From Ruminococcaceae bacterium Marseille-P2935 (GTDB lineage Bacteria; Bacillota; Clostridia; Oscillospirales; Ruminococcaceae), in contig LT629952.1 in assembly GCA_900104565.1 (NCBI GenBank), positions 372,001 through 436,000 of the forward strand: a stretch of 64,000 nucleotides of DNA. The letters run 5' to 3'. Shown piece by piece: positions 4,183 through 64,000 of this stretch. The notes under the pieces are model-generated. The model ran no database searches. It was given only the letters and a program-made list of their open reading frames with translations, and had not been told where the DNA came from. The position numbers were made by a program, and so were the translations under genes. Each line of letters starts with the position of its first letter. The first letter of the stretch is position 1.

Positions 4183-4271
4183 ACTATGTCAGCTCCTTTA
4201 GCAGATTTTTTATTAAAAACCAAAAGTAGTTAGTATATGAAAACATTATATACTATTTGGGCATAAAAACC

Positions 4272-4334: not shown

Positions 4335-4441
4335 TACATTACTACGTAACTTAATTATAATAAAATTGTCTGTGAACTTATTTGGGCAGAGAATTACTGT
4401 GCGGATGTTCTGCCTGTTTTATTCCATTAACGTGCAGAGAA

Positions 4442-6690: not shown

Positions 6691-7185
6691 GAACCTGACC
6701 CGTTACCGTCATGAAACATGCCGAACCGGTTCCCAGAACCTTGTTGCTTTGCAAGAAGAACCTGACCCGTTACCGTCATGAAACATGCCGAACCGGTTCC
6801 CAGAACCTTGTTGCTTTGCAAGAAGAACCTGACCCGTTACCGTCATGAAACATGCCGAACCGGTTCCCAGAACCTTGTTGCTTTGCAAGAAGAACCTGAC
6901 CCGTTACCGTCATGAAACATGCCGAACCGGTTCCCAGAACCTTGTTGCTTTGCAAGAAGAACCTGACCCGTTACCGTCATGAAACATGCCGAACCGGTTC
7001 CCAGAACCTTGTTGCTTTGCAAGAAGAACCTGACCCGTTACCGTCATGAAACATGCCGAACCGGCTCCCAGAACCTTGTTGCTTTGCAAGAAGAACCTGA
7101 CCCGTTACCGTCATGAAATATGCCGAACCGGCTCCCAGAACCTTGTTGCTTTGCAAGAAGAACCTGACCCGTTGCTGTCACGGAA
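6691..7185. repeat. 67-bp tandem repeat array (seven units plus a partial eighth)
   Basis: Units begin GAACCTGACCCG at 6691, 6758, 6825, 6892, 6959, 7026 and 7093, with a diverging eighth at 7160. Units 1-5 look identical. Units 6 and 7 share GGCTCCC for GGTTCCC, and unit 7 also has ATATG for ACATG. Each unit holds small palindromes: GAACCGGTTC, GGTTC CCA GAACC and TTGC TTT GCAA. The array starts directly after the rlmL stop codon. Because 67 is not a multiple of three, it does not encode a protein repeat. There are no unique spacers, so it is not CRISPR. Confidence 0.97.
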
Positions 7186-7239
7186 CACAACAAACTGGGT
7201 TCTCATAGCCCTGTGGTACAGGATAAATGCCCCGGTGAA

Positions 7240-7264
7240 ATTACTCCTTCGGGGTGATTTTTAT
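7240..7264 (+). terminator. Rho-independent terminator after the repeat array
   Basis: ATTACTCC and GGGGTGAT pair (with two G-T wobbles) around a TTC loop, followed by a T-rich tail. It could end the prfB-rlmL transcript after the repeats. Confidence 0.6.
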
Positions 7265-8007
7265 AAAGGTTTAGTTATGAAAGACCAAACTTATTTTGTA
7301 GTTAATAAGAAGAAAAGGGGCGAGTAGCCGGAACTTGGTATATGTTTCAAGGCTTGTTCACATTTTACAAAAACTCCTGTGATACAATCAAAAATGAAAA
7401 GATGGGCGGTTGTACACTAACATAATGAACTCTTATTTGTTTTTGATTGGAATTATTTGCTGAAAGAATCAATTAGTTACGCATGGTGTTTATGGTATCA
7501 TTAGCTATAGAGCAATTATGAGACAATGGTTAGCCACTTATACAGCACTGCTGTTTCGCGATCAGGGTATCATAACTGCAAAGCAGATATGATATCAATT
7601 ATGGCCAACGGCTCACCGCCTACGCGGCAGCTGCCTTTTGACGGCCAATTATACCGTTTACTTTTCGTGTTCTTAGTATTATGTCAACAAACAGGACATC
7701 ATTTTGTATTGAGTCGGGCACTGTAAGGCAAATGTGCGCGCCCCTTGGGTATTATTTTGTGTAAGTGCAGAAAGCAAATTCATTTACACGTTGTGTTTAT
7801 ATATCATATTCTCACGCGAACCAATACCCAAGGAAACAACAACTTCAAAGGCGTATACGGACTGAAGTTTTCCATTGGGAAGTGTATGCAACTGAATGTC
7901 TTCAGCTTTCTTGTGCTTATTGTAATACAGTAGGATCAATACTCTTTTGATAGAAACCAGGTGCCAGGCAATGTTTGTTTTTTTAAACACAGTTGGAGGT
8001 TTGGCAG
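7265..8007. other. Gene-poor intergenic stretch
   Basis: About 740 bases in which no open frame has both a ribosome site and recognisable protein character. A GC-rich island near 7600-7650 stands out from the AT-rich surroundings and may be a relic. The last bases carry the ribosome site of the next gene. I see no RNA gene that I can name. Confidence 0.6.
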
Positions 8008-9564: not shown

Positions 9565-9576
9565 GAGTGTTTCACG

Positions 9577-9918
9577 ATGGGATGCAAGGTAGTAAATTTG
9601 GAAGCTGGAATGCCTTCAGTGCAGACGGCGCATGTTTTACTGAACCAAGCTTTAATATCCGCCAGAGCAAATCGAATAAAAGCTATTAAATTTATTCATG
9701 GCTATGGTTCTTCGGGGCGTGGCGGTGCGATCAAACAGGATGTACACCGGACCTTGTTAGAGAAGAAACGGGCTGGAATAATAAAAGAATTTGTAAAAGG
9801 GGAAGATTTTGATCCGTTTCACTCTACTGCGCGTAAAGTATTGGAGCTTTGTCCAGAATTAAATCGGGATAGTGATTATAATCGGGGAAACGACGGGATT
9901 ACGATTGTAGTGTTTTAG
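9577..9918 (+). CDS. Smr domain protein
   Basis: 113 residues, almost entirely one Smr (small MutS-related) domain. The VNLEAGMPSVQTAHVLLNQAL helix is followed by the signature IKFIHGYGSSGRGGAIKQDVHRTL near residues 45-65 and a C-terminal strand GITIVVF. Smr domains bind or nick nucleic acids; free-standing ones in Firmicutes act in RNA or DNA cleavage. The exact role here is unknown. Its start lies 12 bases after the preceding stop. Confidence 0.85.
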   Translation: MGCKVVNLEAGMPSVQTAHVLLNQALISARANRIKAIKFIHGYGSSGRGGAIKQDVHRTLLEKKRAGIIKEFVKGEDFDPFHSTARKVLELCPELNRDSDYNRGNDGITIVVF

Positions 9919-9936
9919 CAAAGGGGCGTGTCCCAG

Positions 9937-11046
9937 GTGAAGAAATGGAAATTAAAACGTTGGCTATTTTTATTGCTGGTTCCTATCTCAATTTTATTTA
10001 CTTATCTCGCCAAGACCCATCCAGATGAAACAGAAAAAATATTTTCACGTGTAGTTTATCCAGCACTTTCTCAATTTATTTCAAAAATTACATCATTTAT
10101 CCCTTTTTCAATTGCCGAGGTATTTGTCATCCTTTCGGTGCTTGGTGCCATTGTAGGACTCATATTTTTTATTTTATTTTTGTTAAAAAATCGTAGCAGG
10201 TGGAAAGAAATAATAATACGGGCAACAGCTAGTTTGTTAGCGGTTGCTTCGGTCTTGTTTTTTTTCTTTACCATTAACTGTGCGTTAAATTACTATCGTT
10301 ACCCATTTACCTACTACAGCGGATTAGAAATTCGCCCTTCAACCCAGGATGAGCTGGTTGAGTTATGCAGAACTTTGATTCATCAGGCAAATAAACAGCA
10401 GAATTTAGTGATGCGAGATCAAAATGGCAGGATGATATTGTCTGGTTCAAGTATATATCAAACTGCCAAACTTGCTCAAAGTGCTTACCAAAAATTAGGG
10501 GAACAATATGAGGTGCTGGCAGGGGATTATGCTCCGCCAAAACCGGTTTTACTCTCAAAAGCAATGTCTTACTGCCATATTTCCGGTATTTATTTCCCAT
10601 TTACCTTTGAAGCGAATGTAAATGTTGATATACCAGATTATTTGATTCCTTCCACTATGTGTCATGAATTAACGCACTTGAGAGGTTTTATGCGGGAGGA
10701 CGAAGCTAATTTTCTTGGTTTTTTGGCCTGCCAAGAATCTGACAGCCCTGATTTTCAATACAGCGGTACTATGCTGGCATTGGTATATAGCATGAATGCT
10801 CTTTATGCGGTAAATCCTGATTTACATAATCAGCTAAGCAGAATGTATACGGCCGAAGTATTAAACGACTTTATTTATAATGCGGAATATTGGAAACAGT
10901 TTGAAGGGACAGTTTCCCGCGCTGCAACAGAAGTAAATGATACTTATTTAAAGGCGAACAGCCAGCAAGATGGAGTAGAAAGCTATGGCCGAATGGTTGA
11001 TTTGCTTCTCGCCTATTACCGCCAAGGAGGTTTTTTGGAGGCATAG
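9937..11046 (+). CDS. DUF3810 membrane protein with a zinc-protease HExxH motif
   Basis: About 369 residues. Hydrophobic segments near residues 12-30, 50-80 and 93-115 are followed by a soluble C-terminal region. That region has MCHELTHLRGFMREDEANF near residue 240, an HExxH metal site plus a downstream Glu, the pattern of gluzincin-like metallopeptidases. The organisation matches DUF3810. Substrate is unknown. The GTG at 9937 is preferred because AAGGGG lies ten bases upstream; a GTG at 9928 is only one base from that site. It follows the Smr gene by about 18 bases and may be cotranscribed with it. Confidence 0.8.
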   Translation: MKKWKLKRWLFLLLVPISILFTYLAKTHPDETEKIFSRVVYPALSQFISKITSFIPFSIAEVFVILSVLGAIVGLIFFILFLLKNRSRWKEIIIRATASLLAVASVLFFFFTINCALNYYRYPFTYYSGLEIRPSTQDELVELCRTLIHQANKQQNLVMRDQNGRMILSGSSIYQTAKLAQSAYQKLGEQYEVLAGDYAPPKPVLLSKAMSYCHISGIYFPFTFEANVNVDIPDYLIPSTMCHELTHLRGFMREDEANFLGFLACQESDSPDFQYSGTMLALVYSMNALYAVNPDLHNQLSRMYTAEVLNDFIYNAEYWKQFEGTVSRAATEVNDTYLKANSQQDGVESYGRMVDLLLAYYRQGGFLEA

Positions 11047-11175
11047 CTAGCAATTACCCTTACATGTTTACACATTTTTTGGTTAAAATCGACAAGATGT
11101 TGTGAAAATACACAATAGTAATCAACTATAAAAAAGACTATAATAGAATGGATAAAAAATAAGGGGAAATTGTGT

Positions 11176-12996
11176 TTGATTAGAGAAGATTTGAGAAATA
11201 TTGCAATTATTGCCCACGTCGACCATGGCAAAACCACACTGGTTGATGAAATGCTTAAGCAGGGCGGTGCATTTCGTGAAAACCAGGTAGTGGCGGATCG
11301 CGTTATGGATAATGGCGATTTGGAACGTGAGCGCGGAATTACAATTTTAGCCAAAAATACCTCCTGCTATTATGAAGGGGTCAAAATCAATATTATTGAT
11401 ACTCCGGGTCATGCTGACTTTGGCGGAGAGGTGGAACGAATTTTAAAAATGGTGAATGGTGTTGTGTTGCTGGTTGACGCAGCAGAAGGCACCATGCCAC
11501 AAACGCGGTTTGTACTGCAAAAATCGTTGGAGCTTGGCCACAAGGTTATTATTTGTGTGAACAAGATTGACCGTCCTGATGCACGTTTAGGCGAAGTTGA
11601 AGATGAAGTATTAGAGCTTCTGCTCGATTTGGATGCTACGGAAGAACAACTGGAAAGCCCGATTGTTTATTGTTCTGGCCGTGAAGGAATTGCTTCTCTT
11701 TCAGCTGACGAAAGAGGAACTGATTTAAAACCACTGTTTCAGACAATTTTAGATCATGTTCCTGCTCCGGAAGGTGATCCGGACGGGCCTCTGCAGATGT
11801 TGGTGTCTTCTATAGACTATAATGAATATGTGGGACGTATTGCAATTGGCCGGGTAGAACGCGGTACTGTAAGAGTGAATCAAGAGGTAACAGTATGCTC
11901 TTATACAGACTCTAAGCCTCAATACAGAGGGAAAATAGTAAGTCTGTATGAAATTGAGGGCCTGAAAAGAGTACCCTGTGAAACTGCTTCAGTAGGCGAT
12001 ATTGTTTGTTTTTCTGGCATAGAAAAAATTACGATAGGCGATACGATCTGTGACGTTTTAAATCCAGAGCCGCTTCCTTTTGTCAAGGTGGCAGCACCTA
12101 CCGTCGAGATGACCTTTTCGGTAAATGACAGCCCATTTGCAGGCAGGGATGGAAAGTTTGTTACCTCTCGCCATCTGCGTGAGCGGTTATTTAAAGAGTT
12201 ATTAAAAGATGTTTCCCTGCGTGTAGAAGAGACTGAAACCACCGAGGCGTTTAAAGTATCTGGCCGTGGTGAAATGCATCTTTCTATTTTAATTGAAACT
12301 ATGCGCCGTGAAGGCTATGAGTTTCAGGTGAGCACTCCCCGGGTGCTGTTCCAGGAAATTGATGGCGTACTGTGCGAGCCAATTGAAAAGCTGGTTATTG
12401 ACGTTCCAGAGGAATCCATGGGTTCTGTCATGGAAAAAATGGGCCAGCGCAAGGGTGAACTGGTGCATATGAACCCAGTTGGAAACCGTATGAAAATAGA
12501 ATTTCGTATCCCTTCCCGCGGCTTGTTTGGTTACCGAAGCGAGTTTTTAACAGACACACGGGGGGAGGGAATTCTAAGCGCCGTGTTCGATAGTTACCAG
12601 CCTTATAAGGGTGAAATTCCAAAGCGGCCAACCGGTTCATTGATTGCGTTTGAAAGCGGAGATTCCATTACCTATGGTTTGTACAATGCTCAGGAAAGAG
12701 GTACTTTGTTTATTGGTGCCGGTGTACCTGTGTATGAAGGTATGGTAGTAGGGCAATCCCCAAAAACAGATGACCTTGTTGTAAATGTCTGCAAGAAAAA
12801 GCAGCTTACCAACACCCGTGCATCCGGCTCAGATGACGCCTTGCGTTTGATTCCTCCTAAAATCATGAGTTTGGAGGAATCGCTGGAATTTATTACCGAT
12901 GACGAATTAATTGAGGTTACTCCCAAAAATATTCGTATTCGTAAAAAAATACTTTCTCATGCGCAGCGTATGAAACAGGCAGCGAAGAATAAGTAA
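11176..12996 (+). CDS. typA: Ribosome-associated GTPase TypA/BipA
   Basis: About 606 residues. TypA binds ribosomes and helps large-subunit assembly and stress growth. The G1 motif AHVDHGKTT is at about residues 11-19. The switch I segment ERERGITI, G3 DTPGHADFGGEV and G4 NKID follow in order. Downstream are EF-Tu-like, EF-G-like and TypA-specific C-terminal domains ending in a basic tail. The likely start is TTG at 11176 (MIREDLRNIAIIAHV), nine bases after AAGGGG; TTG 11170 is only three bases from it. The length matches the family. Confidence 0.97.
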   Translation: MIREDLRNIAIIAHVDHGKTTLVDEMLKQGGAFRENQVVADRVMDNGDLERERGITILAKNTSCYYEGVKINIIDTPGHADFGGEVERILKMVNGVVLLVDAAEGTMPQTRFVLQKSLELGHKVIICVNKIDRPDARLGEVEDEVLELLLDLDATEEQLESPIVYCSGREGIASLSADERGTDLKPLFQTILDHVPAPEGDPDGPLQMLVSSIDYNEYVGRIAIGRVERGTVRVNQEVTVCSYTDSKPQYRGKIVSLYEIEGLKRVPCETASVGDIVCFSGIEKITIGDTICDVLNPEPLPFVKVAAPTVEMTFSVNDSPFAGRDGKFVTSRHLRERLFKELLKDVSLRVEETETTEAFKVSGRGEMHLSILIETMRREGYEFQVSTPRVLFQEIDGVLCEPIEKLVIDVPEESMGSVMEKMGQRKGELVHMNPVGNRMKIEFRIPSRGLFGYRSEFLTDTRGEGILSAVFDSYQPYKGEIPKRPTGSLIAFESGDSITYGLYNAQERGTLFIGAGVPVYEGMVVGQSPKTDDLVVNVCKKKQLTNTRASGSDDALRLIPPKIMSLEESLEFITDDELIEVTPKNIRIRKKILSHAQRMKQAAKNK

Positions 12997-13000
12997 ATGA

Positions 13001-13039
13001 AAAGAAGTAATCGCAAAATATGTGATTACTTCTTTTGCT
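13001..13039 (+). terminator. Terminator after typA
   Basis: AAAGAAGTAATC at 13001-13012 pairs exactly with GATTACTTCTTT at 13024-13035, with an 11-base loop and T-rich tail. Confidence 0.8.
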
Positions 13040-13411
13040 ATATCACTTTATAGTTTAAATTTCATGGTAAAATCTAGAAAAACACTTCAGCAGGGCTGTA
13101 TTCTGTGAAAGACTGTTGTTGAAAAACTTTTAAGGTACTGAAAGTATGGAATGTTGCAGGATAAGAACAGAGGTGATTGCTTGGCTTCTTTTCTTTAGGT
13201 AAACCGCATAATTGGGGGATGTTATTGCCGGCTCAGTACACGGGGTATAACCTACACGTACAGCAACCCGTATTGGTTAAGTCTGTAATTTATAAAATCA
13301 AATTAATTTTATTATCATAATTGTTGTAATAGCATTTTTATGCTCTAATACTCCAGTTTACAGTACCATGTTAAAAGTTCGTAATAGCCGATTAAGAAGG
13401 AGAAGAACGGT
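13040..13411. other. Intergenic region, no supported gene
   Basis: About 370 AT-rich bases between typA and the next small gene. A 33-codon frame from 13219 preceded by GGGGG is too short and featureless to call. The last 15 bases carry the AAGGAG ribosome site of the next gene. Confidence 0.5.
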
Positions 13412-13591
13412 ATGAAAAGATACGAGTATGTACCCATAGAAAATACCAAAATGTTTGGTGCTAAGTTCGAAGGGTATCGTGAAATAATTAATGAATATGC
13501 GGAAAAAGGGTATCGTTATGTGGGATATATTCCCTCAGAGATAGCTGGAATTTTAATAAAATTTGATTTGGTTTTTGAAAAAGAAAAATAA
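13412..13591 (+). CDS. Small DUF4177-like protein
   Basis: 59 residues. AAGGAG lies nine bases upstream of the ATG. The sequence has the pattern of DUF4177: MKRYEYVPIEN at the start, then HREIINEYAEKGYRYVGYIPSE-like centre (here YREIINEYAEKGYRYVGYIP), and a final strand LVFEKEK. The fold is predicted to be a small alpha/beta protein; no function is established. It is a single-gene unit followed at once by a strong terminator. Confidence 0.8.
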   Translation: MKRYEYVPIENTKMFGAKFEGYREIINEYAEKGYRYVGYIPSEIAGILIKFDLVFEKEK

Positions 13592-13622
13592 AAAGGGCAG
13601 CGAATAATTGCTGCCCTTTTTA
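13591..13622. terminator. Bidirectional terminator between the DUF4177 gene and thiT
   Basis: AAAAGGGCAGC and GCTGCCCTTTT form an 11-bp stem with an 8-base loop. A-rich and T-rich flanks let it work in both directions for the two convergent genes. Confidence 0.85.
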
Positions 13623-13649
13623 TTTTTGTATGGGGTAATACAAGTGATA

Positions 13650-14231
13650 TTAGACTAAATGCGTTGCCTCAGGATTACCAATATTGGTCAGTAAAGAACC
13701 AATTACGCCAGCACCTATACAGGTGATAATTAGTTCCGGTCCCATGTAGGAACCATTATAACCCAACGAGTAAACTACAGCACCCATTCCTTCGGGAGCC
13801 CAGGCGCCCCAAAGCAGCACACCCGAGACAAAGTGGCAGATAAAACGGCCAAATACGACTACTGCGCTTCCGCAAATCAGTTCCAACGATTGTTTTTTGA
13901 GTTTCCCTTTAAACATTCCGCCTAGTCCAAGTATGGTATATGCCAAAATATAATCTAAAAAGATAGCGGCAATCAAGGTTCCCATGTCAATACCCCGTAA
14001 ACCGTTGATCCCCAAAATAAGCTGTAGTAAAGCATTGGCAAACCCGGTTGCTAGACCCCATTTTATACCGTGCCGATAACTGATTAAAATAATCGGTAGC
14101 ATGCTGCAAATCGTGATAGAACCTCCATTAGGCCAAAACTGGAAACTTAAAAAGGGAAGCGATAAAACAGCAGAGACAGCAAGCATTAAAGCACATTCCA
14201 CCAGTTTTCTTGTTCTTGTTACAGTTCTCAT
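13650..14231 (-). CDS. thiT: Thiamine ECF transporter substrate-binding subunit ThiT
   Basis: 193 residues with about six hydrophobic segments. ThiT is the S component that binds thiamine and works with the shared EcfAAT module. Family landmarks are the NGGSITICSMLPIILISYRHG segment, a following GFANALLQLILG stretch and a C-terminal half with WGAWAPEGMGAVVYSLGYNG, which lines the thiamine site in ThiT. The ATG at 14231 has GAGGAGG eight bases upstream; longer frames run into the riboswitch and are rejected. A TPP riboswitch with terminator precedes the gene, which agrees with the function. Confidence 0.92.
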   Translation of the reverse strand: MRTVTRTRKLVECALMLAVSAVLSLPFLSFQFWPNGGSITICSMLPIILISYRHGIKWGLATGFANALLQLILGINGLRGIDMGTLIAAIFLDYILAYTILGLGGMFKGKLKKQSLELICGSAVVVFGRFICHFVSGVLLWGAWAPEGMGAVVYSLGYNGSYMGPELIITCIGAGVIGSLLTNIGNPEATHLV

Positions 14232-14280
14232 AGTAGACCTCCTCAAAATTGTTAGACAATTAGGTATGGAGTAAGAAAAT

Positions 14281-14313
14281 AAAAAGCACGTAATCTTTGC
14301 CAGATTACGTGCT
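14281..14313 (-). terminator. thiT: TPP riboswitch expression-platform terminator
   Basis: AGCACGTAATCT and AGATTACGTGCT form a perfect 12-bp stem with a 5-base loop. On the minus strand a T-rich tail follows. It lies between the aptamer and the thiT start. Confidence 0.85.
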
Positions 14314-14321
14314 GCGAACAT

Positions 14322-14412
14322 TTCTGTTTTCCTACGCTGGCATTATCCAGATCAGGTTATGGGTTAGAAATTTTGGATTTCCTCTCAGCCGAGCCTACTC
14401 AGCACCCCCGTA
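14322..14412 (-). promoter_or_regulatory. TPP (THI-box) riboswitch
   Basis: Read on the minus strand the aptamer begins GGGGGTGCTGAGTAGGCT, continues CTGAGAGGAAATCC, and ends ACCTGATCTGGATAATGCCAGCG. These are the conserved THI-box segments. When thiamine pyrophosphate binds, the adjacent terminator should form and shut off thiT. Confidence 0.95.
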
Positions 14413-57054: not shown

Positions 57055-58059
57055 CTATTTGATTGATTTATTATGATGTTTTGATGATAATTTTACCTTA
57101 GAAAGCGGCGAAGCGTCTGCTGCTTTTTCCAGTTGCTTATTTGATATATGAGTGTAAATTTCGGTTGTTGAAAGGTTGGCATGACCGAGAATTTCTTTCA
57201 GCACGCGAATATCCACATTGCCGTGTTGATACATCAATGTTGCTGCAGTATGCCGCAGTTTGTGCGGCGAATAACCTTTATCATTCAAATCGGCGTTTTT
57301 TAAAGCTTGTTCTACAATTTGTTCCACTCGTCTCCCGCTTAAGCGAGTGCCTCTGGAAGATAAAAACAGTGCTAGGCGATTTGCGTCGCCTTTTGGTTGC
57401 GGACGTACCTTCAAATAGCTCTCAATTGCCTGTACACATGCTTCATTCAAATATATAATGCGCTCTTTGTTGCCTTTCCCCAAAAGTTTTAAAGTGTTAT
57501 CTCGAATATCATTTAAATTAATTCCAACAAGTTCCGAAAGCCGCATACCACAGTTTAAAAAAAGTGTTAGAATGCATTGATCCCGTTCCGGATATGGGGA
57601 GTCTACATGAGTTAATAGCTCTAATGATTCTTCTAAAGTAAGGTATTTGGGAACCGTTTTTCGAATTGTTGGGACTTCAAGGTCTTTTACTGGGTTTTCA
57701 TTTAAATATTGTGTTCTTGTTGTAAGATATTTAAAAAGTGAACGAATACTAGAAACCTTACGGGAACGTGTAGCGGCACCATTGGAGCGATCTGTTAGTA
57801 TATAATTTAAATAAGAATAAACATCAGATGTAGTAACCTTAGAAAGATGTTCCGGATTAAAGTCAGTAATATCCAACTGAGAGAAATCATCCATAACAGC
57901 GGTTGATTGTTTGGCTTTTATGTAACGTAAAAATAAGCGCAGGTCAACATGATATGCTTCAACAGTCCGTACTGAACGGCCTTTGATCGTAAGCATATAA
58001 AATAAAAAATCTTTTAAAAAAATGGGACAATCACTAAAACTATTAGAGTTAGATGTCAT
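57055..58059 (-). CDS. xer: Xer-family tyrosine recombinase
   Basis: 334 residues from ATG 58059, with GGGG seven bases upstream; an in-frame TTG at 58065 is also possible. The N-terminal SAM-like domain (residues about 14-110) is followed by the catalytic domain. Catalytic residues are Arg in CGMRLSELVG (about 173), Lys in LLGKGNKER, His and Arg in SPHKLRHTA (about 266 and 269), His in LGHANLSTT (about 293) and Tyr in EIYTHI (about 302). Xer proteins resolve chromosome dimers at dif. A dif-like site lies 14 bp upstream of the start codon, as in XerS/difSL and XerH/difH single-recombinase systems. It is single copy, outside the repeated element. Confidence 0.92.
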   Translation of the reverse strand: MTSNSNSFSDCPIFLKDFLFYMLTIKGRSVRTVEAYHVDLRLFLRYIKAKQSTAVMDDFSQLDITDFNPEHLSKVTTSDVYSYLNYILTDRSNGAATRSRKVSSIRSLFKYLTTRTQYLNENPVKDLEVPTIRKTVPKYLTLEESLELLTHVDSPYPERDQCILTLFLNCGMRLSELVGINLNDIRDNTLKLLGKGNKERIIYLNEACVQAIESYLKVRPQPKGDANRLALFLSSRGTRLSGRRVEQIVEQALKNADLNDKGYSPHKLRHTAATLMYQHGNVDIRVLKEILGHANLSTTEIYTHISNKQLEKAADASPLSKVKLSSKHHNKSIK

Positions 58060-58073
58060 TTTCAATCCCCTAT

Positions 58074-58101
58074 ATTTCGCTAAATTTTTATTTAGCGAAA
58101 T
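58074..58101. other. Perfect 11-6-11 dif-like site (left junction, attL)
   Basis: ATTTCGCTAAA at 58074-58084 and TTTAGCGAAAT at 58091-58101 are exact complements separated by the 6 bases TTTTTA. This is the classic size for a Xer site. The right arm is the first 11 bases of the repeated element, so the site is a junction: the left arm and probably the centre are chromosomal. It stays a complete site after insertion. It lies between the rep stop codon (58106) and the xer ribosome site (58067-58070). Confidence 0.9.
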
Positions 58102-58105
58102 TGTA

Positions 58106-58966
58106 CTACATACTTTCCATGACTTCCCTAAGCTTCAACTGTTCAAACGTTAATGGTATAAACGTATCCTCAGGGTCTCCGAAGTCATTCAAATCACTAC
58201 AACATTCATTGTACCACGGTTCTAAATAATTGCCAACCGTAAACGCTTCATTCAAATAAGCCATACTACAAAAATCATCCTGATACTGCGGATTAAATTC
58301 CATGGGTACATCATCCATATCAAACACCAATTCAGGCCGTCTAAGCCCCTTAGAAGCCATTAGGACACGTTTACCCTTACCCATAGACACCAAATCCTTA
58401 GTGACGTATTTAGCTATGTAAGAAGCGCATTTTTCATGGTTACGAATCATAGAACAGTTAAACCAGCCACATTTACTAGAATAATACTGCCAATCCACAT
58501 AACCTTTTGTATTGGGAACTTCAAAAAGCTGATCTCCTTCACGCTTCATCACAAATTCAGAAACAATTAAATCCTCTGGACGAATCCCACGAACTAAACC
58601 ATGAAAATGAATAGCCTTATCCTTGTGGTACTCGGGAACAATCAAATACCTAAAATCTGGTGAATAACGAACTTTGTAATTATTAAAAACCTTTGTTATT
58701 CTGTTTCTACAAACATCAAAATTGTAACGATCAATCTTTTGGCCATCAAAGGTAAATGTACAAAAATAATCAAACTGGTTGCACAAGGCTAAATCTCGAA
58801 TAGTCCGGCGAGTACGTGCCAAATTATTCAAATATTTTTCATCCTGCTCTAAAGAATCCAATATTTTTTTAGTATTCTCCCCTGCCCTACCGCGGTCACC
58901 TTTGAAATAAATATGCTTGTAAGCAACCTCTTTCATAGGATATTCATAGATTCTGTAATACGACAT
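58106..58966 (-). CDS. HUH replication initiator (gene II/G2P-like Rep), copy 1
   Basis: 286 residues. Motif I is FDYFCTFTFD at about residues 65-74. Motif II is the HUH pair KAIHFHGLV with His 120 and His 122. Motif III is YIAKY at about 183-187, where one Tyr would attack DNA. This order fits rolling-circle initiators of the inovirus gene II / ORF2-G2P group. It should nick a phage-type origin, probably at the hairpins just upstream (59194-59230). It ends five bases from the dif-like site and points toward xer. About 270 bases of leader precede it. Confidence 0.88.
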   Translation of the reverse strand: MSYYRIYEYPMKEVAYKHIYFKGDRGRAGENTKKILDSLEQDEKYLNNLARTRRTIRDLALCNQFDYFCTFTFDGQKIDRYNFDVCRNRITKVFNNYKVRYSPDFRYLIVPEYHKDKAIHFHGLVRGIRPEDLIVSEFVMKREGDQLFEVPNTKGYVDWQYYSSKCGWFNCSMIRNHEKCASYIAKYVTKDLVSMGKGKRVLMASKGLRRPELVFDMDDVPMEFNPQYQDDFCSMAYLNEAFTVGNYLEPWYNECCSDLNDFGDPEDTFIPLTFEQLKLREVMESM

Positions 58967-59193
58967 GTAATGTCACATCCTCTACTTTTGGTATCAGGAA
59001 GACGTTAGTCAGATCGCTAATGAGTGAATTATGATATGTTGTCTAGTATAGGGAAACCTGATCGTAACTTTTGGTAGATGAATTACCTGCTAAATAAAGG
59101 TGGTCAGGCGAAAAAAGTGCAAAAATATTACAGCCACAGAAAATACAACGATTTTCCAAGTAACTGTAACAAGGGCAATATGGAATTGTTTAT

Positions 59194-59230
59194 GCCCATT
59201 CGGGCGCTAGATACCGTGCCCAGCACGGTA
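59194..59230 (-). other. Paired hairpins upstream of rep, candidate nicking origin
   Basis: GCCC ATTC GGGC at 59194-59205 is followed by TACCGTGC CCA GCACGGTA at 59212-59230. Such tandem hairpins close to an HUH rep gene are typical of rolling-circle origins. The nick site is not determined. The same bases recur at 62100-62136. Confidence 0.5.
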
Positions 59231-59233
59231 AGC

Positions 59234-59311
59234 TCATAAAATCAAATAAGCGCAAGCAATCAGAAACAGGAAAACAAAGGTAACAGAAAAACTAATCCAA
59301 AACAATTTCAT
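59234..59311 (-). CDS. 25-residue membrane peptide of the element, copy 1
   Basis: An ATG at 59311 with GGGAGGATAGT just upstream opens MKLFWISFSVTFVFLFLIAC and ends after AYLIL. After two residues it is one continuous hydrophobic segment. It is preserved unchanged in copy 2. It could be a tiny coat-like, holin-like or regulatory membrane peptide; it is shorter than known inovirus coat proteins. The strong ribosome site supports translation. Confidence 0.6.
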   Translation of the reverse strand: MKLFWISFSVTFVFLFLIACAYLIL

Positions 59312-59328
59312 ACTATCCTCCCGATCGG

Positions 59329-59450
59329 CGGGGGGCGGGGGCAAGCATGCTTGCTACCCTCGCCCCCCCCCCTCCTCTATCCTGCTACCAAAACCCCCCA
59401 AAACCTCTCAGAGCGCTTCAATACATAAAAAGCATAACCTTAGCAAAAAT
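59329..59450. other. GC-rich foldback region that differs between copies
   Basis: GCAAGCATGCTTGC (59341-59354) is a perfect palindrome. G-rich bases before it and C-rich bases after it extend the fold. This non-coding stretch between the 86-residue gene and the membrane-peptide gene holds all 11 single-base differences I found between copies 1 and 2. Confidence 0.7.
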
Positions 59451-59509
59451 CAAGTAAAAACGCATTACAAAGGATTTAAAAGGCCTTACAAGAAAAATAA
59501 ATAGAGTTT

Positions 59510-59770
59510 TCATATTTTGGAAGGAATAATTTCCGATAAATAAGAACGATTAGAGCCAAGAGGCTGAAAATAAACTAACTCATAAACAGAATCAATCACT
59601 AAATCAGGAAGCTTAATATTTGTAAAAACCTGAGCAGTACGATAACCAGTAAATCTTGAGGTATTCTCCTGATCAACAGAAACAACATGAAGCTTAGTAC
59701 CCTTAATAGAACGACCACTTTCTGTATCAACGAAATCAACCAGCTGCACACCTTTTAAAATTACCTTCAC
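59510..59770 (-). CDS. 86-residue small protein, possible ssDNA-binding protein, copy 1
   Basis: GTG 59770 is chosen because AGTGAGG lies nine bases upstream; it gives MKVILKGVQLVDFVDTESG. A longer frame from 59800 has no ribosome site. The protein is rich in beta-strand-like segments (GTKLHVVSVDQ, TAQVFTNIKLPDLV, VYELVYFQPLG). Its size and strand-rich pattern recall the 87-residue gene V ssDNA-binding protein of Ff phages, but there is no clear sequence match. A binding role is inference from size, context and an HUH rep in the same operon direction. Confidence 0.7.
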   Translation of the reverse strand: MKVILKGVQLVDFVDTESGRSIKGTKLHVVSVDQENTSRFTGYRTAQVFTNIKLPDLVIDSVYELVYFQPLGSNRSYLSEIIPSKI

Positions 59771-59811
59771 AATAAAAAACCTCACTTTACTTATTAGCAA
59801 TATTTCCTTAC

Positions 59812-59852
59812 AGACCGGACCCGGCTGCTAAAGCTTTGCCGGGTTCCGGTCT
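59812..59852. other. Strong hairpin between the 90- and 86-residue genes
   Basis: AGACCGGA and CCCGGC pair with GCCGGG and TCCGGTCT around a 12-base loop with one bulge. No T-run follows on the minus strand, so it is not a standard terminator. A packaging signal, processing site or second-strand origin are possible. Confidence 0.65.
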
Positions 59853-59865
59853 TCCCTTCTAACAA

Positions 59866-60138
59866 TTAAACATCTATACTATGATGAAAAATCCTTACCG
59901 GATTAGGCAATGTAGAACAGGAAGACAACAACCGAGGGAACGACTCAGAAAAAACATCACAAACACAAGTATCATCAAAACTACAATAAGCAATTAAACA
60001 ACAAGCTAAAAACTCATCACGAAGCGAAGCAATACGCTCTAAAAGATCGGGCTCTAATTCACAAAGAGAATCAAACGCACAAACAGCAAAACCAAAACGA
60101 TTAATAAAATCCTCAGACACCGAAACTTCAATCTTCAT
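59866..60138 (-). CDS. 90-residue protein of unknown function, copy 1
   Basis: ATG 60138 gives MKIEVSVSEDFINRFGFAVC with GGGGGA about ten bases upstream; an in-frame ATG at 60156 lacks a site. The protein is acidic in the middle (CELEPDLLERIASLRDEFLAC) and carries eight Cys. I recognise no family. It overlaps the preceding 48-residue gene by 11 bases and is the second gene of the element's minus-strand operon. Confidence 0.65.
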   Translation of the reverse strand: MKIEVSVSEDFINRFGFAVCAFDSLCELEPDLLERIASLRDEFLACCLIAYCSFDDTCVCDVFSESFPRLLSSCSTLPNPVRIFHHSIDV

Positions 60139-60274
60139 AAAGCACCAATCCCCCATTACTCAAAAAATGAAAAAGCAACGCTTCTTTAACGTGGTTATGT
60201 TTAAAAGTCTCGCAAACATCCAACAGCCATAAAAGATCAGAAAAAGTTAATTCCATATTCTTACTAATTTCCAT
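60128..60274 (-). CDS. 48-residue protein, first gene of the minus-strand operon, copy 1
   Basis: ATG 60274 (MEISKNMELTFSDLLWLLDV) is about six bases after AAAGGGGTGG and about 20 bases after the predicted start of transcription. The protein is small and helical with a charged N-terminus. Function is unknown. Its stop overlaps the start of the 90-residue gene, so they are coupled. Confidence 0.6.
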   Translation of the reverse strand: MEISKNMELTFSDLLWLLDVCETFKHNHVKEALLFHFLSNGGLVLYED

Positions 60275-60300
60275 ACAACCACCCCTTTCTGTTTGAATAA

Positions 60301-60329
60301 ATTGTACTTTATAAGAACATATTAATCAA
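60301..60329 (-). promoter_or_regulatory. Promoter of the element's minus-strand operon, copy 1
   Basis: On the minus strand TTGATT (60329-60324) and TACAAT (60306-60301) are 17 bases apart. The spacer contains ATGTTCTTATA, a half-site similar to the adjacent operator. Confidence 0.7.
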
Positions 60330-60343
60330 AGACGAAATAAAGC

Positions 60344-60370
60344 TATAATGTTCTTTTAGAGAACATTATA
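60344..60370. promoter_or_regulatory. Palindromic operator between divergent promoters, copy 1
   Basis: TATAATGTTCT and AGAACATTATA are exact complements with a 5-base spacer. They lie between the -35 boxes of the two divergent promoters. The neighbouring XRE protein is the likely ligand. Confidence 0.75.
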
Positions 60371-60392
60371 CCCGTATAAACTCTTTATTACT

Positions 60393-60421
60393 TTGATTAT
60401 CTTAAAATTAAATGTTATTCT
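60393..60421 (+). promoter_or_regulatory. Promoter of the repressor operon, copy 1
   Basis: TTGATT at 60393-60398 and TATTCT at 60416-60421 with a 17-base spacer, about 24 bases before the XRE start codon. Confidence 0.65.
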
Positions 60422-60444
60422 AAAGGACAAAGGGGAGATAAAAC

Positions 60445-60648
60445 ATGGAACTAAAAGAAATATTAAAAGAAGAAAGAAGAAAACATGGTTATACACAACA
60501 ACAAATTGCCGATAAACTATGTATAGCTAGAGGATCATATACAAAGTATGAAACAGGAGACAACACCCCAACTCTAGAAAACCTTATAAAACTAGCAGAA
60601 CTATATAAAGTCTCTTTAGATTACCTTGCAGGGAGATACAAAGAATGA
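60445..60648 (+). CDS. XRE-family repressor, copy 1
   Basis: 67 residues forming one helix-turn-helix domain: LKEILKEERRKHGYTQQQIADKLCIARGSYTKYETGDNTPTLENLIKLAELYKVSLDYLAGR. AAAGGGGAG precedes the ATG. It is transcribed divergently from the replication operon, with an inverted repeat between, as for phage repressors such as RstR of CTXphi. It probably silences the rep operon. The next gene overlaps its stop. Confidence 0.9.
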   Translation: MELKEILKEERRKHGYTQQQIADKLCIARGSYTKYETGDNTPTLENLIKLAELYKVSLDYLAGRYKE

Positions 60649-60869
60649 AGATAGAAAGAACATGTGAAACATGCCAACTAGGGTTTGACCCATTCTGTGA
60701 ACCTCAAAAAGATAGCAACAACATATGCATTAATTGGGAACCAGAAATAAAGTTATTTGAAGAAATGGTAAACATGCTACCTGAAAAAGAAAGAAATAAA
60801 TTTCTAATGTCAGGTCAAAACATGGAATGGCTATACAAAAGAATTGAGGAAATAACCGAAGACAAATAA
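60645..60869 (+). CDS. Cys-rich 74-residue protein in the repressor operon, copy 1
   Basis: The ATG overlaps the stop of the XRE gene (ATGA). Four Cys in CETCQLGFDPFCEP and a later NNICINWEP look like a small zinc-binding fold. A helical C-terminus follows (EMVNMLPEKERNKFLMSGQNMEWLYKRIEEI). I recognise no family. It may assist or oppose the repressor, or form a second regulatory unit with it. Confidence 0.75.
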   Translation: MKIERTCETCQLGFDPFCEPQKDSNNICINWEPEIKLFEEMVNMLPEKERNKFLMSGQNMEWLYKRIEEITEDK

Positions 60870-60875
60870 CCGTCC

Positions 60876-60906
60876 ACTTTCGCTAAATAACCGTTGTAGC
60901 GAAAGT
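60876..60906. other. First dif-like repeat of the element (attP1-like), copy 1
   Basis: ACTTTCGCTA and TAGCGAAAGT are exact complements with an 11-base spacer. The arms share TTTCGCTAAAT with the chromosomal dif-like site. It lies seven bases after the 74-residue gene. Confidence 0.75.
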
Positions 60907-60917
60907 TGAGAAAACAA

Positions 60918-60952
60918 AAAGCCGTGATACGCACCCAGCATATCACGGCTTT
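60918..60952 (+). terminator. Hairpin between the two dif-like repeats, copy 1
   Basis: AAAGCCGTGATA and TATCACGGCTTT form a perfect 12-bp stem with an 11-base loop, followed by ACTTTGTTTTTT. It can end the repressor transcript and also bring the two att repeats together when single-stranded. Confidence 0.85.
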
Positions 60953-60979
60953 ACTTTGTTTTTTCAATTTTAAAATGAA

Positions 60980-61007
60980 TCGCTAAACCTGTACCATTTA
61001 GCGAAAT
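60980..61007. other. Internal junction, second dif-like repeat (attP2-like)
   Basis: TCGCTAAA at 60980-60987 and TTTAGCGA at 60997-61004 are complementary but are separated by nine bases instead of six. The right arm TTTAGCGAAAT is perfect, while the left arm is displaced. This is the junction between copies 1 and 2. Confidence 0.8.
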
Positions 61008-61011
61008 TGTA

Positions 61012-61872
61012 CTACATACTTTCCATGACTTCCCTAAGCTTCAACTGTTCAAACGTTAATGGTATAAACGTATCCTCAGGGTCTCCGAAGTCATTCAAAT
61101 CACTACAACATTCATTGTACCACGGTTCTAAATAATTGCCAACCGTAAACGCTTCATTCAAATAAGCCATACTACAAAAATCATCCTGATACTGCGGATT
61201 AAATTCCATGGGTACATCATCCATATCAAACACCAATTCAGGCCGTCTAAGCCCCTTAGAAGCCATTAGGACACGTTTACCCTTACCCATAGACACCAAA
61301 TCCTTAGTGACGTATTTAGCTATGTAAGAAGCGCATTTTTCATGGTTACGAATCATAGAACAGTTAAACCAGCCACATTTACTAGAATAATACTGCCAAT
61401 CCACATAACCTTTTGTATTGGGAACTTCAAAAAGCTGATCTCCTTCACGCTTCATCACAAATTCAGAAACAATTAAATCCTCTGGACGAATCCCACGAAC
61501 TAAACCATGAAAATGAATAGCCTTATCCTTGTGGTACTCGGGAACAATCAAATACCTAAAATCTGGTGAATAACGAACTTTGTAATTATTAAAAACCTTT
61601 GTTATTCTGTTTCTACAAACATCAAAATTGTAACGATCAATCTTTTGGCCATCAAAGGTAAATGTACAAAAATAATCAAACTGGTTGCACAAGGCTAAAT
61701 CTCGAATAGTCCGGCGAGTACGTGCCAAATTATTCAAATATTTTTCATCCTGCTCTAAAGAATCCAATATTTTTTTAGTATTCTCCCCTGCCCTACCGCG
61801 GTCACCTTTGAAATAAATATGCTTGTAAGCAACCTCTTTCATAGGATATTCATAGATTCTGTAATACGACAT
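61012..61872 (-). CDS. HUH replication initiator, copy 2
   Basis: The 286-residue protein is identical to the copy-1 Rep, with the same FCTFTF, HFH and YIAKY motifs. Its stop is five bases from the internal junction site. Downstream on this strand lies the attP1/attP2 region of copy 1 instead of xer. Confidence 0.88.
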   Translation of the reverse strand: MSYYRIYEYPMKEVAYKHIYFKGDRGRAGENTKKILDSLEQDEKYLNNLARTRRTIRDLALCNQFDYFCTFTFDGQKIDRYNFDVCRNRITKVFNNYKVRYSPDFRYLIVPEYHKDKAIHFHGLVRGIRPEDLIVSEFVMKREGDQLFEVPNTKGYVDWQYYSSKCGWFNCSMIRNHEKCASYIAKYVTKDLVSMGKGKRVLMASKGLRRPELVFDMDDVPMEFNPQYQDDFCSMAYLNEAFTVGNYLEPWYNECCSDLNDFGDPEDTFIPLTFEQLKLREVMESM

Positions 61873-62139
61873 GTAATGTCACATCCTCTACTTTTGGTAT
61901 CAGGAAGACGTTAGTCAGATCGCTAATGAGTGAATTATGATATGTTGTCTAGTATAGGGAAACCTGATCGTAACTTTTGGTAGATGAATTACCTGCTAAA
62001 TAAAGGTGGTCAGGCGAAAAAAGTGCAAAAATATTACAGCCACAGAAAATACAACGATTTTCCAAGTAACTGTAACAAGGGCAATATGGAATTGTTTATG
62101 CCCATTCGGGCGCTAGATACCGTGCCCAGCACGGTAAGC

Positions 62140-62217
62140 TCATAAAATCAAATAAGCGCAAGCAATCAGAAACAGGAAAACAAAGGTAACAGAAAAACTA
62201 ATCCAAAACAATTTCAT
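62140..62217 (-). CDS. 25-residue membrane peptide, copy 2
   Basis: Same sequence and ribosome site as the copy-1 peptide, although the bases just upstream differ between copies. Confidence 0.6.
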   Translation of the reverse strand: MKLFWISFSVTFVFLFLIACAYLIL

Positions 62218-62415
62218 ACTATCCTCCCGATCGGCGGGGTGCGGGTGCAAGCATGCTTGCTACCCTCGCCCCCGCCTCTCCTCTATCCTGCTACCAAACC
62301 CCTCAAAATCCTCTCAGAGCGTTTCAATACATAAAAAGCATAACTTTAGCAAAATTCAAGTAAAAACGCATTACAAAGGATTTAAAAGGCCTTACAAGAA
62401 AAATAAATAGAGTTT

Positions 62416-62676
62416 TCATATTTTGGAAGGAATAATTTCCGATAAATAAGAACGATTAGAGCCAAGAGGCTGAAAATAAACTAACTCATAAACAGAATCA
62501 ATCACTAAATCAGGAAGCTTAATATTTGTAAAAACCTGAGCAGTACGATAACCAGTAAATCTTGAGGTATTCTCCTGATCAACAGAAACAACATGAAGCT
62601 TAGTACCCTTAATAGAACGACCACTTTCTGTATCAACGAAATCAACCAGCTGCACACCTTTTAAAATTACCTTCAC
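62416..62676 (-). CDS. 86-residue possible ssDNA-binding protein, copy 2
   Basis: Identical to the copy-1 protein, GTG start with AGTGAGG upstream. Role inferred as described there. Confidence 0.7.
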   Translation of the reverse strand: MKVILKGVQLVDFVDTESGRSIKGTKLHVVSVDQENTSRFTGYRTAQVFTNIKLPDLVIDSVYELVYFQPLGSNRSYLSEIIPSKI

Positions 62677-62771
62677 AATAAAAAACCTCACTTTACTTAT
62701 TAGCAATATTTCCTTACAGACCGGACCCGGCTGCTAAAGCTTTGCCGGGTTCCGGTCTTCCCTTCTAACAA

Positions 62772-63044
62772 TTAAACATCTATACTATGATGAAAAATCC
62801 TTACCGGATTAGGCAATGTAGAACAGGAAGACAACAACCGAGGGAACGACTCAGAAAAAACATCACAAACACAAGTATCATCAAAACTACAATAAGCAAT
62901 TAAACAACAAGCTAAAAACTCATCACGAAGCGAAGCAATACGCTCTAAAAGATCGGGCTCTAATTCACAAAGAGAATCAAACGCACAAACAGCAAAACCA
63001 AAACGATTAATAAAATCCTCAGACACCGAAACTTCAATCTTCAT
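62772..63044 (-). CDS. 90-residue protein of unknown function, copy 2
   Basis: Identical to the copy-1 protein, overlapping the 48-residue gene by 11 bases. Confidence 0.65.
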   Translation of the reverse strand: MKIEVSVSEDFINRFGFAVCAFDSLCELEPDLLERIASLRDEFLACCLIAYCSFDDTCVCDVFSESFPRLLSSCSTLPNPVRIFHHSIDV

Positions 63045-63180
63045 AAAGCACCAATCCCCCATTACTCAAAAAATGAAAAAGCAACGCTTCTTTAACGTGG
63101 TTATGTTTAAAAGTCTCGCAAACATCCAACAGCCATAAAAGATCAGAAAAAGTTAATTCCATATTCTTACTAATTTCCAT
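63034..63180 (-). CDS. 48-residue protein, copy 2
   Basis: Identical to the copy-1 protein, first in the minus-strand operon. Confidence 0.6.
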   Translation of the reverse strand: MEISKNMELTFSDLLWLLDVCETFKHNHVKEALLFHFLSNGGLVLYED

Positions 63181-63249
63181 ACAACCACCCCTTTCTGTTT
63201 GAATAAATTGTACTTTATAAGAACATATTAATCAAAGACGAAATAAAGC

Positions 63250-63276
63250 TATAATGTTCTTTTAGAGAACATTATA
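63250..63276. promoter_or_regulatory. Palindromic operator, copy 2
   Basis: Same 11-5-11 inverted repeat as in copy 1, between the same divergent promoters. Confidence 0.75.
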
Positions 63277-63350
63277 CCCGTATAAACTCTTTATTACTTT
63301 GATTATCTTAAAATTAAATGTTATTCTAAAGGACAAAGGGGAGATAAAAC

Positions 63351-63554
63351 ATGGAACTAAAAGAAATATTAAAAGAAGAAAGAAGAAAACATGGTTATAC
63401 ACAACAACAAATTGCCGATAAACTATGTATAGCTAGAGGATCATATACAAAGTATGAAACAGGAGACAACACCCCAACTCTAGAAAACCTTATAAAACTA
63501 GCAGAACTATATAAAGTCTCTTTAGATTACCTTGCAGGGAGATACAAAGAATGA
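63351..63554 (+). CDS. XRE-family repressor, copy 2
   Basis: Identical 67-residue helix-turn-helix protein. Two repressor genes in the array would raise repressor dosage and could give immunity to further copies. Confidence 0.9.
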   Translation: MELKEILKEERRKHGYTQQQIADKLCIARGSYTKYETGDNTPTLENLIKLAELYKVSLDYLAGRYKE

Positions 63555-63775
63555 AGATAGAAAGAACATGTGAAACATGCCAACTAGGGTTTGACCCATT
63601 CTGTGAACCTCAAAAAGATAGCAACAACATATGCATTAATTGGGAACCAGAAATAAAGTTATTTGAAGAAATGGTAAACATGCTACCTGAAAAAGAAAGA
63701 AATAAATTTCTAATGTCAGGTCAAAACATGGAATGGCTATACAAAAGAATTGAGGAAATAACCGAAGACAAATAA
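63551..63775 (+). CDS. Cys-rich 74-residue protein, copy 2
   Basis: Identical to the copy-1 protein, coupled to the XRE gene by ATGA. Confidence 0.75.
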   Translation: MKIERTCETCQLGFDPFCEPQKDSNNICINWEPEIKLFEEMVNMLPEKERNKFLMSGQNMEWLYKRIEEITEDK

Positions 63776-63781
63776 CCGTCC

Positions 63782-63913
63782 ACTTTCGCTAAATAACCGT
63801 TGTAGCGAAAGTTGAGAAAACAAAAAGCCGTGATACGCACCCAGCATATCACGGCTTTACTTTGTTTTTTCAATTTTAAAATGAATCGCTAAACCTGTAC
63901 CATTTAGCGAAAT
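63782..63913. other. att region between copies 2 and 3
   Basis: Contains the first dif-like repeat (63782-63812), the 12-bp hairpin (63824-63858) and the second, 9-base-spaced repeat (63886-63913), as at the end of copy 1. Confidence 0.8.
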
Positions 63914-64000
63914 TGTACTACATACTTTCCATGACTTCCCTAAGCTTCAACTGTTCAAACGTTAATGGTATAAACGTATCCTCAGGGTCTCCGAAGTCAT
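63903..64000. mobile_element. Start of a third element copy, cut by window end
   Basis: The bases from TTTAGCGAAAT to the window end repeat the beginning of copies 1 and 2. They include the last codons of a third rep gene on the minus strand (from 63918). The array therefore continues beyond the window. Confidence 0.93.

Follow-up and report, generated by a model that had tools for sequence, protein, structure and literature searches.

The window analysed here, a 64,000-nucleotide stretch of the chromosome of Ruminococcaceae bacterium Marseille-P2935 (contig LT629952.1, positions 372,001 to 436,000), ends in a tandem array of a 2,906-bp unit that begins at a dif-like site beside the host xer gene. 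In the assembled genome (G000; 2.67 Mb, 7 contigs), the array consists of three head-to-tail 2,906-bp copies at C7:430090-438807, a count based on the assembly, followed by unique flank, and is spanned by one contig of 1.73 Mb. According to repeat comparison and junction analysis, the window holds two complete units, copy 1 (58090..60995) and copy 2 (60996..63901), and the first 99 bp of copy 3 (63902..64000), which is complete in the genome and ends at C7:438807, equivalent to window position 66807. The preliminary description of this DNA had reported two complete direct repeats and the start of a third, beginning at the right arm of a perfect 11-6-11 site. These coordinates were reproduced; the site is 58074-58101, and the point of exchange falls within 13 identical bp, ATTTAGCGAAATT, common to the left end of the array, both unit junctions and the right end. 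To the left of ATTTAGCGAAATT, the first end carries the host TTTTT centre and the other ends carry CCTGTACC of the element, while host flank lies to the right of it at the last end of the array. As read from the sequence, the ends are arranged as site-specific recombination at dif would leave them.

The site at the left end is a perfect 11-6-11 palindrome, ATTTCGCTAAA TTTTTA TTTAGCGAAAT (58074..58101), regenerated at the xer-proximal end of the array, and it adjoins xer, which encodes a 336-aa Xer-type tyrosine recombinase on the minus strand (57055..58065; PF00589, 7e-39). The pattern with fixed arms, ATTTCGCTAAA-N6-TTTAGCGAAAT, was found in 83 of 297 genomes of the family, once in 81 and twice in two (G137 and G206). 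As the reversed-pattern control for these arms gave no match in the 297 genomes, the site is not a chance occurrence. GC skew in 20-kb stretches was positive in 6/6 to the left of the array (the last +0.096, at 410-430 kb) and negative in 14/14 sampled to the right (the first -0.091, at 439-459 kb). Five other full tyrosine recombinase genes were detected in the genome with PF00589, and as all five carry integrase-type N-terminal domains, xer is the only Xer-type gene found in G000; a further PF00589 match is an 84-aa fragment under the cut-off. Because the site is single-copy, adjoins the sole Xer-type gene found and lies where the GC skew changes sign, 58074-58101 is very probably the dif of the chromosome.

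An old mobile element carrying its own recombinase could instead have left both gene and site, which would then have nothing to do with chromosome dimer resolution. The recombinase indeed scores under the XerC and XerD equivalog cut-offs (229 bits against TIGR02224, under the 335-bit cut-off), and the curated XerC cut-off was exceeded in none of 41 genomes. The single-copy state of the site in 81 of the 83 positive genomes, the change of GC skew sign across it and the lack of another Xer-type gene among those found in this genome speak against such an origin, as does conservation: the xer orthologue was present at E 1e-90 in 38 of 61 genomes (own included), and of these 38 loci 30 were inspected, in 21 of which the 300 bp preceding the aligned xer start contain a dif-like 11-6-11 palindrome with 10 or more of its 11 pairs matching. 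We give this origin hardly any credence.

The other inspected xer loci comprised two with other palindromes, one with a perfect palindrome downstream and six with none. The palindromes upstream of xer in L040 and L041 reach the 10-of-11 count and were excluded as not dif-like. The arms vary between genera yet stay symmetric, for example ATTTCGCTAAA, ATTAGACAAAA, ATTGCACCAAA, ACTGCGCGAAA, ATTATACAAAA and AGTTCGCTAAA. With the XerC profile at E 1e-40, 25 genomes of the same family (own included) gave one match in 16, at least two in four and none in five. G000, with one Xer-type gene found, lacks the pair of Xer paralogues of an XerC/XerD system, and its dif, with a 6-bp centre and perfect arms, departs from difSL of the XerS system, which has an 11-bp centre and imperfect arms; the host Xer scores 146.6 bits against NF003462 (XerS; cut-off 267). 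From these sequence comparisons, the family looks to have a single-recombinase Xer/dif system with a symmetric, xer-linked dif. In a separate genome of the same order (G044:C1:1545375-1547240), two adjacent Xer-type genes lie on opposite strands, possibly a transition from one to two recombinases.

Each unit carries rep, which encodes an HUH rolling-circle initiator of inovirus type (58106..58966, minus strand; PF23343, 4.7e-12; phrog_3419, 3.7e-15), with an identical open reading frame (ORF) in copy 2 (61012..61872, minus strand), and a divergently transcribed gene for an RstR-like helix-turn-helix (HTH) repressor (60445..60648, plus strand; HTH_3; NF041951 phage_RstR, 3.6e-20, 72.2 bits against a cut-off of 80). 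No recombinase gene was present inside the 2,906-bp unit in the ORF list or in family searches of the unit ORFs, and the latter recognised no Zot, coat or adhesin gene. ORFs and families thus bear out the gene content first reported for each unit, namely an HUH Rep, a divergent XRE-type repressor, small ORFs and no integrase. The unit lacks the recognisable Zot-type ATPase and coat proteins that define full Inoviridae. It combines a replication protein of inovirus lineage (see the tree below) with no recognised morphogenesis or coat gene, as expected of a satellite, three of its small ORFs being without family matches.

The Rep contains an HFHG motif, and Y183 and Y187 are invariant across four aligned Reps. 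In a tree of 28 Reps, it falls in a nine-row clade with support of 99/97, whose other eight rows all belong to inovirus loci, namely those of Dulem viruses 69, 70, 73 and 74, of genomes G137 and G208, of the IMG/VR contig L078 and of L100, a Subdoligranulum plasmid record. The Dulem records carry a Zot annotation, and Zot was detected with Pfam Zot in G137 and G208 (L079, L080); in L078 and L100, it was assigned via an L078 ORF that matches the same L081, L084 and L087 ORFs as the L079/L080 Zot. The nearest Reps are those of G137 (59% identity) and G208 (57%). Inovirus (filamentous phage) ancestry of the element is well supported by these sequence relationships. A profile search of genome contigs with the Rep alignment yielded five distant loci. 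A Rep paralogue at C7:812410 was considered as a second element of the same kind in this genome and rejected, as it has its own integrase and lies off dif; this second wide-family Rep (L085, G000:C7:800000-819000, 10879-14376) is accompanied by HTH, excisionase-like (by eye) and arm-type integrase genes.

The same comparisons bear on whether the unit is an integrative rolling-circle plasmid, equipped with a replication and attachment module of inovirus origin but never packaged, and spread by other means or vertically. Such a plasmid would account for the lack of a recognised Zot or coat gene in the unit and for the failure to find a helper in the host genome, and small staphylococcal plasmids do encode Reps of the wider family (about 30% identity). 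However, the Rep of the unit nests among inovirus Reps, and the sole plasmid-record row among them is a Zot-encoding inovirus locus; the staphylococcal Reps, which lie outside the tree, are more distant (about 30% vs 44-59%), and the repressor, origin motif and attP layout all have inovirus counterparts. We consider the plasmid unlikely, though credible.

Inoviruses were found at the xer-linked dif of several relatives, in cases drawn from Rep, xer or site searches that do not amount to a census. In G208, a 6.2-kb inovirus with repressor, Zot and Rep genes, and with two large proteins that have signal-like starts (by eye), lies between xer and a regenerated perfect dif. An inovirus prophage of about 10.7 kb in G011, and one of about 7.0 kb with part of a second in G088, were traced at both ends at the xer-linked dif; G005 and G179 show inovirus genes next to xer and dif, traced to fewer than two ends, and two different Zot genes lie next to xer in G190, where L081 has TTTAGTGAAAT repeats at 7168 and 13798. 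The names of the records carrying relatives are consistent with the Clostridia setting proposed in the preliminary description. The G011 prophage (L191, G011:C20:1-16000, 3510-14223) also encodes a relative of the 85-aa protein of the unit, and the xer match adjoining it contains one TAG. In G137 (L182, L183, L184), a 182-kb contig has its own dif-like site (centre GAAAAG) occupied by the inovirus, which may be in tandem, as judged from contig breaks; the chromosomal dif beside xer (centre TACATA) appears unoccupied.

Elements of other types were seen in the same searches. In L089 (G313:C22, 7320-9250), xer and a near-perfect dif are separated by about 1.9 kb that encodes a Rep and a catalytic-only tyrosine recombinase of 178 aa; this is a mini-element at dif of a type distinct from the unit studied here. 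L095 (G265:C161, 48-2060) encodes a Rep and a 190-aa tyrosine recombinase with the catalytic domain only, near four dif-like sites (about 1717, 1900, 1967 and 2024) reminiscent of an array of Xer sites. In L083 (G128:C14:226000-242000, 5700-10802), a 2,544-bp sequence is repeated in tandem (5700-8258 is identical when shifted by that length), alongside genes for a Rep and for a tyrosine recombinase of 208 aa that has the catalytic domain only; a P-loop ATPase-like ORF unmatched by the Zot queries lies downstream. The plasmid record L100 (OY725836.1, Subdoligranulum variabile, 154 kb) holds an unannotated inovirus-like locus at 7998-13298, with a Rep 41% identical to that of the unit and a Zot-type ORF 62% identical to that of the IMG/VR inovirus L078; no dif-like arm was found at two or fewer mismatches in the stretch inspected.

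The unit carries two dif-like sites, identified from sequence and folding. Site A (60977..61008; 11-9-11) is the junction itself, its right arm being the exchange arm, and site B (60877..60906; 11-8-11) is inverted relative to it; the spacer between B and A contains a terminator-like hairpin (60918..60952). In the predicted fold of the minus strand (60876..61008), A anneals with B to give a forked hairpin whose centre is unpaired, a folded attP in which the exchange arm forms the outer stem, followed by the unpaired centre, the inner stem and the upper hairpin; the same folded attP recurs at the junction of copies 2 and 3 (63783..63914, minus strand). As single-stranded DNA (ssDNA), the region gave a z score of -8.8, with 0/200 shuffles as stable, and arm A is predicted to pair with site B at a mean probability of 0.79, compared with 0.08 for its own other half. 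Two inverted dif-like sites and a forked ssDNA hairpin, here predicted, are features of a CTXphi-type attP. Because the unit has a second, inverted site, a single attP of the VGJphi type was rejected for it; the prophages of G208 and G011 may have an attP of that type.

The double-site pattern ATTTCGCTAAA-N7-12-TTTAGCG was found in 6/297 family genomes (own, G088, G137, G222, G188 and G244) and 0 times in the control. G088 and G137 carry it in inoviruses and G188 in a remnant; in G222 it belongs to an element whose small ORFs are inovirus-like by eye and gave no Zot match. In G244 (L178, G244:C56:56000-70000, 5093-8603), a 3.5-kb element with no Zot match lies at the xer-linked dif, with sites A and B 7 nt apart, arms that pair and a putative Rep (by eye) that matches no family. 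Among 13 element records inspected, ten fork in the minimum free energy (MFE) structure, that of G222 splits, and G208 and Dulem 66 are without a double site; when the 11 records other than the last two were shuffled, 0/100 shuffles were as stable for each, with z from -5.9 to -10.3. In seven dissected elements, the inner arms are unlike in sequence (e.g. TAGCGA, GTTTAGTG, TTTTCGTGAAGC..., GTTTTTCGCAT) yet pair, and in bajarodino virus 53, six of the 11 outer-arm bases differ too with pairing kept. Such variation would be expected if pairing, not sequence, were conserved. The first base after the exchange arm is that of the target dif in 5/5 elements with a known target (1, 3, 4, 2 and 1 bases shared), with four T/T matches and one G/G match at the dif of the second contig in G137.

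Copies 2 and 3 of the array differ at one position. Copies 1 and 2 differ at 11 positions, all inside a 116-bp stretch (59334-59449), and are identical elsewhere, with six ORFs open in both. At 10/11 of these positions, the copy-1 variant is the preceding base of copy 2, so that the cluster is probably a sequencing phasing error past a GC-rich hairpin. Since the differences resemble a phasing error, the copies are possibly identical, and the number of three copies is uncertain. The differences also bear on an assembly artefact, in which the assembler would have expanded a single copy or a free episome to three, exact 2.9-kb repeats being difficult for short reads. Against this, unique flanks on both sides meet the array at proper att junctions, the 1.73-Mb contig runs across it, and inoviruses lie side by side in relatives (in G190, with two different Zot genes, and in G088). 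We therefore hold an artefact to be improbable. Decay offers another account, in which the units are the remains of a full phage, a degenerate inovirus prophage that is now immobile. The G188 remnant, which is 1.5 kb long, lies at dif and retains part of a Zot, is a prophage in just this condition, but the copies here are identical outside the 116-bp stretch, the six ORFs are open in copies 1 and 2, the tandem junctions are precise att sites, and family searches of the unit recognised neither a partial Zot nor a coat gene, which makes decay very improbable.

Upstream of rep, a candidate double-strand origin core, ACTAGAC (59041..59047, minus strand), lies at 81 nt in a conserved stretch (about 59019-59054). 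The motif ACT[AT]G[AT]C, which was picked after inspecting these same sequences, occurs within 110 nt before rep in 7/7 clade members compared, against 2/360 host-chromosome background windows. A GC-rich inverted repeat further upstream (59330..59375) is a possible origin or packaging hairpin; the 481-nt region taken whole folds only slightly better than shuffles (z -1.6). The 85-aa protein (59510..59767, minus strand; GTG start picked by eye) has an inovirus counterpart in a 90-aa ORF of the G011 prophage (43% over 77 aa, 58.9 bits, E 4e-15 in a 16-kb target). It matches an RstB-like profile weakly (hmmsearch E 0.0014 for 100 sequences; hhalign probability 33%), and binding of ssDNA is only suggested. 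ORFs of 96 aa (59866..60156) and 48 aa (60128..60274), both on the minus strand, have no convincing family match and no assigned function. A 74-aa Cys-containing ORF (60645..60869, plus strand), which overlaps the repressor stop (ATGA), has no convincing relatives in families or IMG/VR. No relative of the 85-aa or 74-aa protein was confirmed in IMG/VR, and the sole relative found for the 85-aa protein is the one in the G011 prophage. No Rfam RNA reached the gathering thresholds within 55-64 kb of the window.

Taken together, these observations suggest, with a probability of about three in four, that the unit is a coat-less derivative of a filamentous phage, an RS1-like satellite or coat-less mini-inovirus that enters dif as ssDNA via the host Xer and is released from tandem copies by rolling-circle replication. 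Integration at dif is well supported, and the ssDNA route is strongly suggested by the modelled fold. Insertion at the chromosomal dif, the absence of a recombinase of its own and the regenerated dif at 58074-58101 are the sequence-level traits of integrative mobile elements exploiting Xer (IMEXs). The preliminary description had seen an element that borrows Xer; its insertion at dif beside the host xer and its lack of an integrase are borne out, and the joining would be done by the host Xer. Packaging by a helper, the least certain step, would complete the cycle.

In the proposed cycle, the circular (+) ssDNA made by Rep would fold, and sites A and B would anneal into a dif-like duplex with an unpaired centre. 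The single host Xer would then swap one pair of strands with dif at the border of arm A and the centre, and replication would complete the insertion, after which dif would be intact next to xer and the sites at the far end inert. Because dif is restored there, further copies could enter on the xer side, and the array would grow. The restored dif and the altered junction centres fit irreversible insertion. The repressor would hold rep silent; upon induction, Rep would nick the origin of one copy and end at the next, releasing ssDNA circles that require no excision and might be packaged by a helper inovirus. On a wider scale, we lean towards the view that inoviruses and coat-less satellites of Clostridia integrate in this way, as folded ssDNA, into a symmetric, xer-linked dif served by a single Xer.

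Several points weigh against the satellite and its folded attP. No helper inovirus was found in the own genome with two Zot queries, the second of which gave matches in 7/10 genomes searched. Pfam Zot gave one borderline match there, in a 753-aa frame, and one weak match, and this model also matches in 8/14 control genomes, four of them over the cut-off; an external helper inovirus is possible. A divergent coat gene may be hidden among the 96-, 48- and 74-aa ORFs, which have no recognised relatives, and the AlphaFold model of the 85-aa protein was uninformative (pLDDT 49.5) and was not used. The nucleotide-level search for the unit covered its own genus alone (one genome). Regarding the fold, the MFE structure of G222 consists of two local hairpins, with the alternative pairings near equal (0.49 and 0.50), no double site was present in the regions inspected of the G208 and Dulem 66 inoviruses, and the G011 prophage has a single, degenerate far site. 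The independent cases are fewer than 13, as Dulem 67/69/70 and Dulem 73/74 are near-identical, and the folded set omits the attP of G005, G179, G190, L078 and others. Regarding the target, the unit shares one centre base with dif, and the four T/T matches weigh little because T is the usual first centre base; a host dif predicted from the arms of bajarodino virus 53 was found in 0/391 genomes of the class, a failed prediction.

RS1, the satellite of CTXphi in Vibrio cholerae, is about 2.7 kb long and has a Rep, an RstR-type repressor and a further small protein, and no coat or Zot genes. The unit resembles it in size, in this gene plan and in dif integration, a likeness drawn independently of any sequence alignment to RS1; it differs in that its host has one Xer and a symmetric dif, and no counterpart of the RS1 gene rstC was recognised in it. 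Production of CTXphi phage depends on tandem copies of the prophage or RS1, as stated in passages of PMC4246890, and by analogy tandem units would likewise let Rep initiate at one origin and terminate at the following one. The attP(+) of CTXphi, as described in passages of PMC3089051 and PMC4246890, consists of two inverted dif-like sites about 90 bp apart that form a forked hairpin. The likeness extends to inverted sites near the repressor, a forked ssDNA hairpin with an unpaired centre, and a regenerated dif. Unlike CTXphi, however, the unit has near-palindromic arms, a spacer of 70 nt (7 nt in G244) instead of about 90, and weaker centre homology, and one recombinase is present here in place of XerC plus XerD. 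The TLCphi satellite is likewise a coat-less replication module at dif that uses Xer, as far as passages of PMC4246890 describe it, but has a double-stranded DNA attP, a degenerate XerD arm and Xer excision, whereas the unit has a double folded site.

Gut Inoviridae such as Dulem 67, 69, 70, 73 and 74 resemble the unit in a Rep with 44% identity along the whole protein, in a gene on the opposite strand that follows rep (HTH in Dulem 69) and in the same folded attP after rep in 5/5 records compared; they differ in their size of 5.2-6.0 kb and in having ZOT annotated. As for single-recombinase systems, XerS, XerH and archaeal XerA are named in passages of the review PMC5357621, where the string 'clostridi' does not occur; passages of PMC9765430 add XerL of Legionella. 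XerS/difSL, XerH/difH and XerL share the use of one recombinase with the system here, and linkage of xer and dif is found in XerS as well (passages of PMC5357621 and PMC9765430); difSL differs in its 11-bp centre and imperfect arms from the perfect 11-6-11 palindrome. LME-1 of Legionella is, in passages of PMC9765430, an IMEX of a single-recombinase system, with a different host and recombinase. Gut inoviruses with predicted Firmicutes hosts have been reported, in passages of PMC8530359 that do not mention dif.

In the CC-licensed literature of PubMed Central, as judged from titles and abstract openings among the matches listed, no paper that places inoviruses or satellites at a Firmicutes dif, no report of an RS1-like satellite outside Proteobacteria and no description of a single-recombinase dif system of this bacterial group was found; a paper of the first kind may exist elsewhere. 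This is consistent with the preliminary suggestion that the element may be undescribed. What the present analysis appears to add to that description is a Rep of inovirus type with inovirus prophages at the xer-linked dif of relatives, a second inverted dif-like site that would make the attP a CTXphi-like folded one, and one Xer-type gene, as found, with a perfectly symmetric dif in the genome.

If the proposed reading is true, insertion of ssDNA as known from CTXphi would not be a peculiarity of Vibrio and enterobacteria; it would be a wider inovirus strategy in which the fold is kept while the sequence changes, and the best-understood case of viral ssDNA insertion would extend from Vibrio to Clostridia, with relatives of the unit that include phages sequenced from animal faeces. 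The unit would then represent a satellite of the RS1 kind beyond the Proteobacteria, working with a dif system that has a single recombinase. The route would work with one recombinase on a symmetric site, to which the division of labour between XerC and XerD is inapplicable. Two inverted dif arms beside an inovirus rep may serve as a search rule for coat-less satellites that gene-based phage finders may miss, and the perfect 11-6-11 palindrome beside xer provides a candidate single-Xer dif for the bacterial family that is directly testable.

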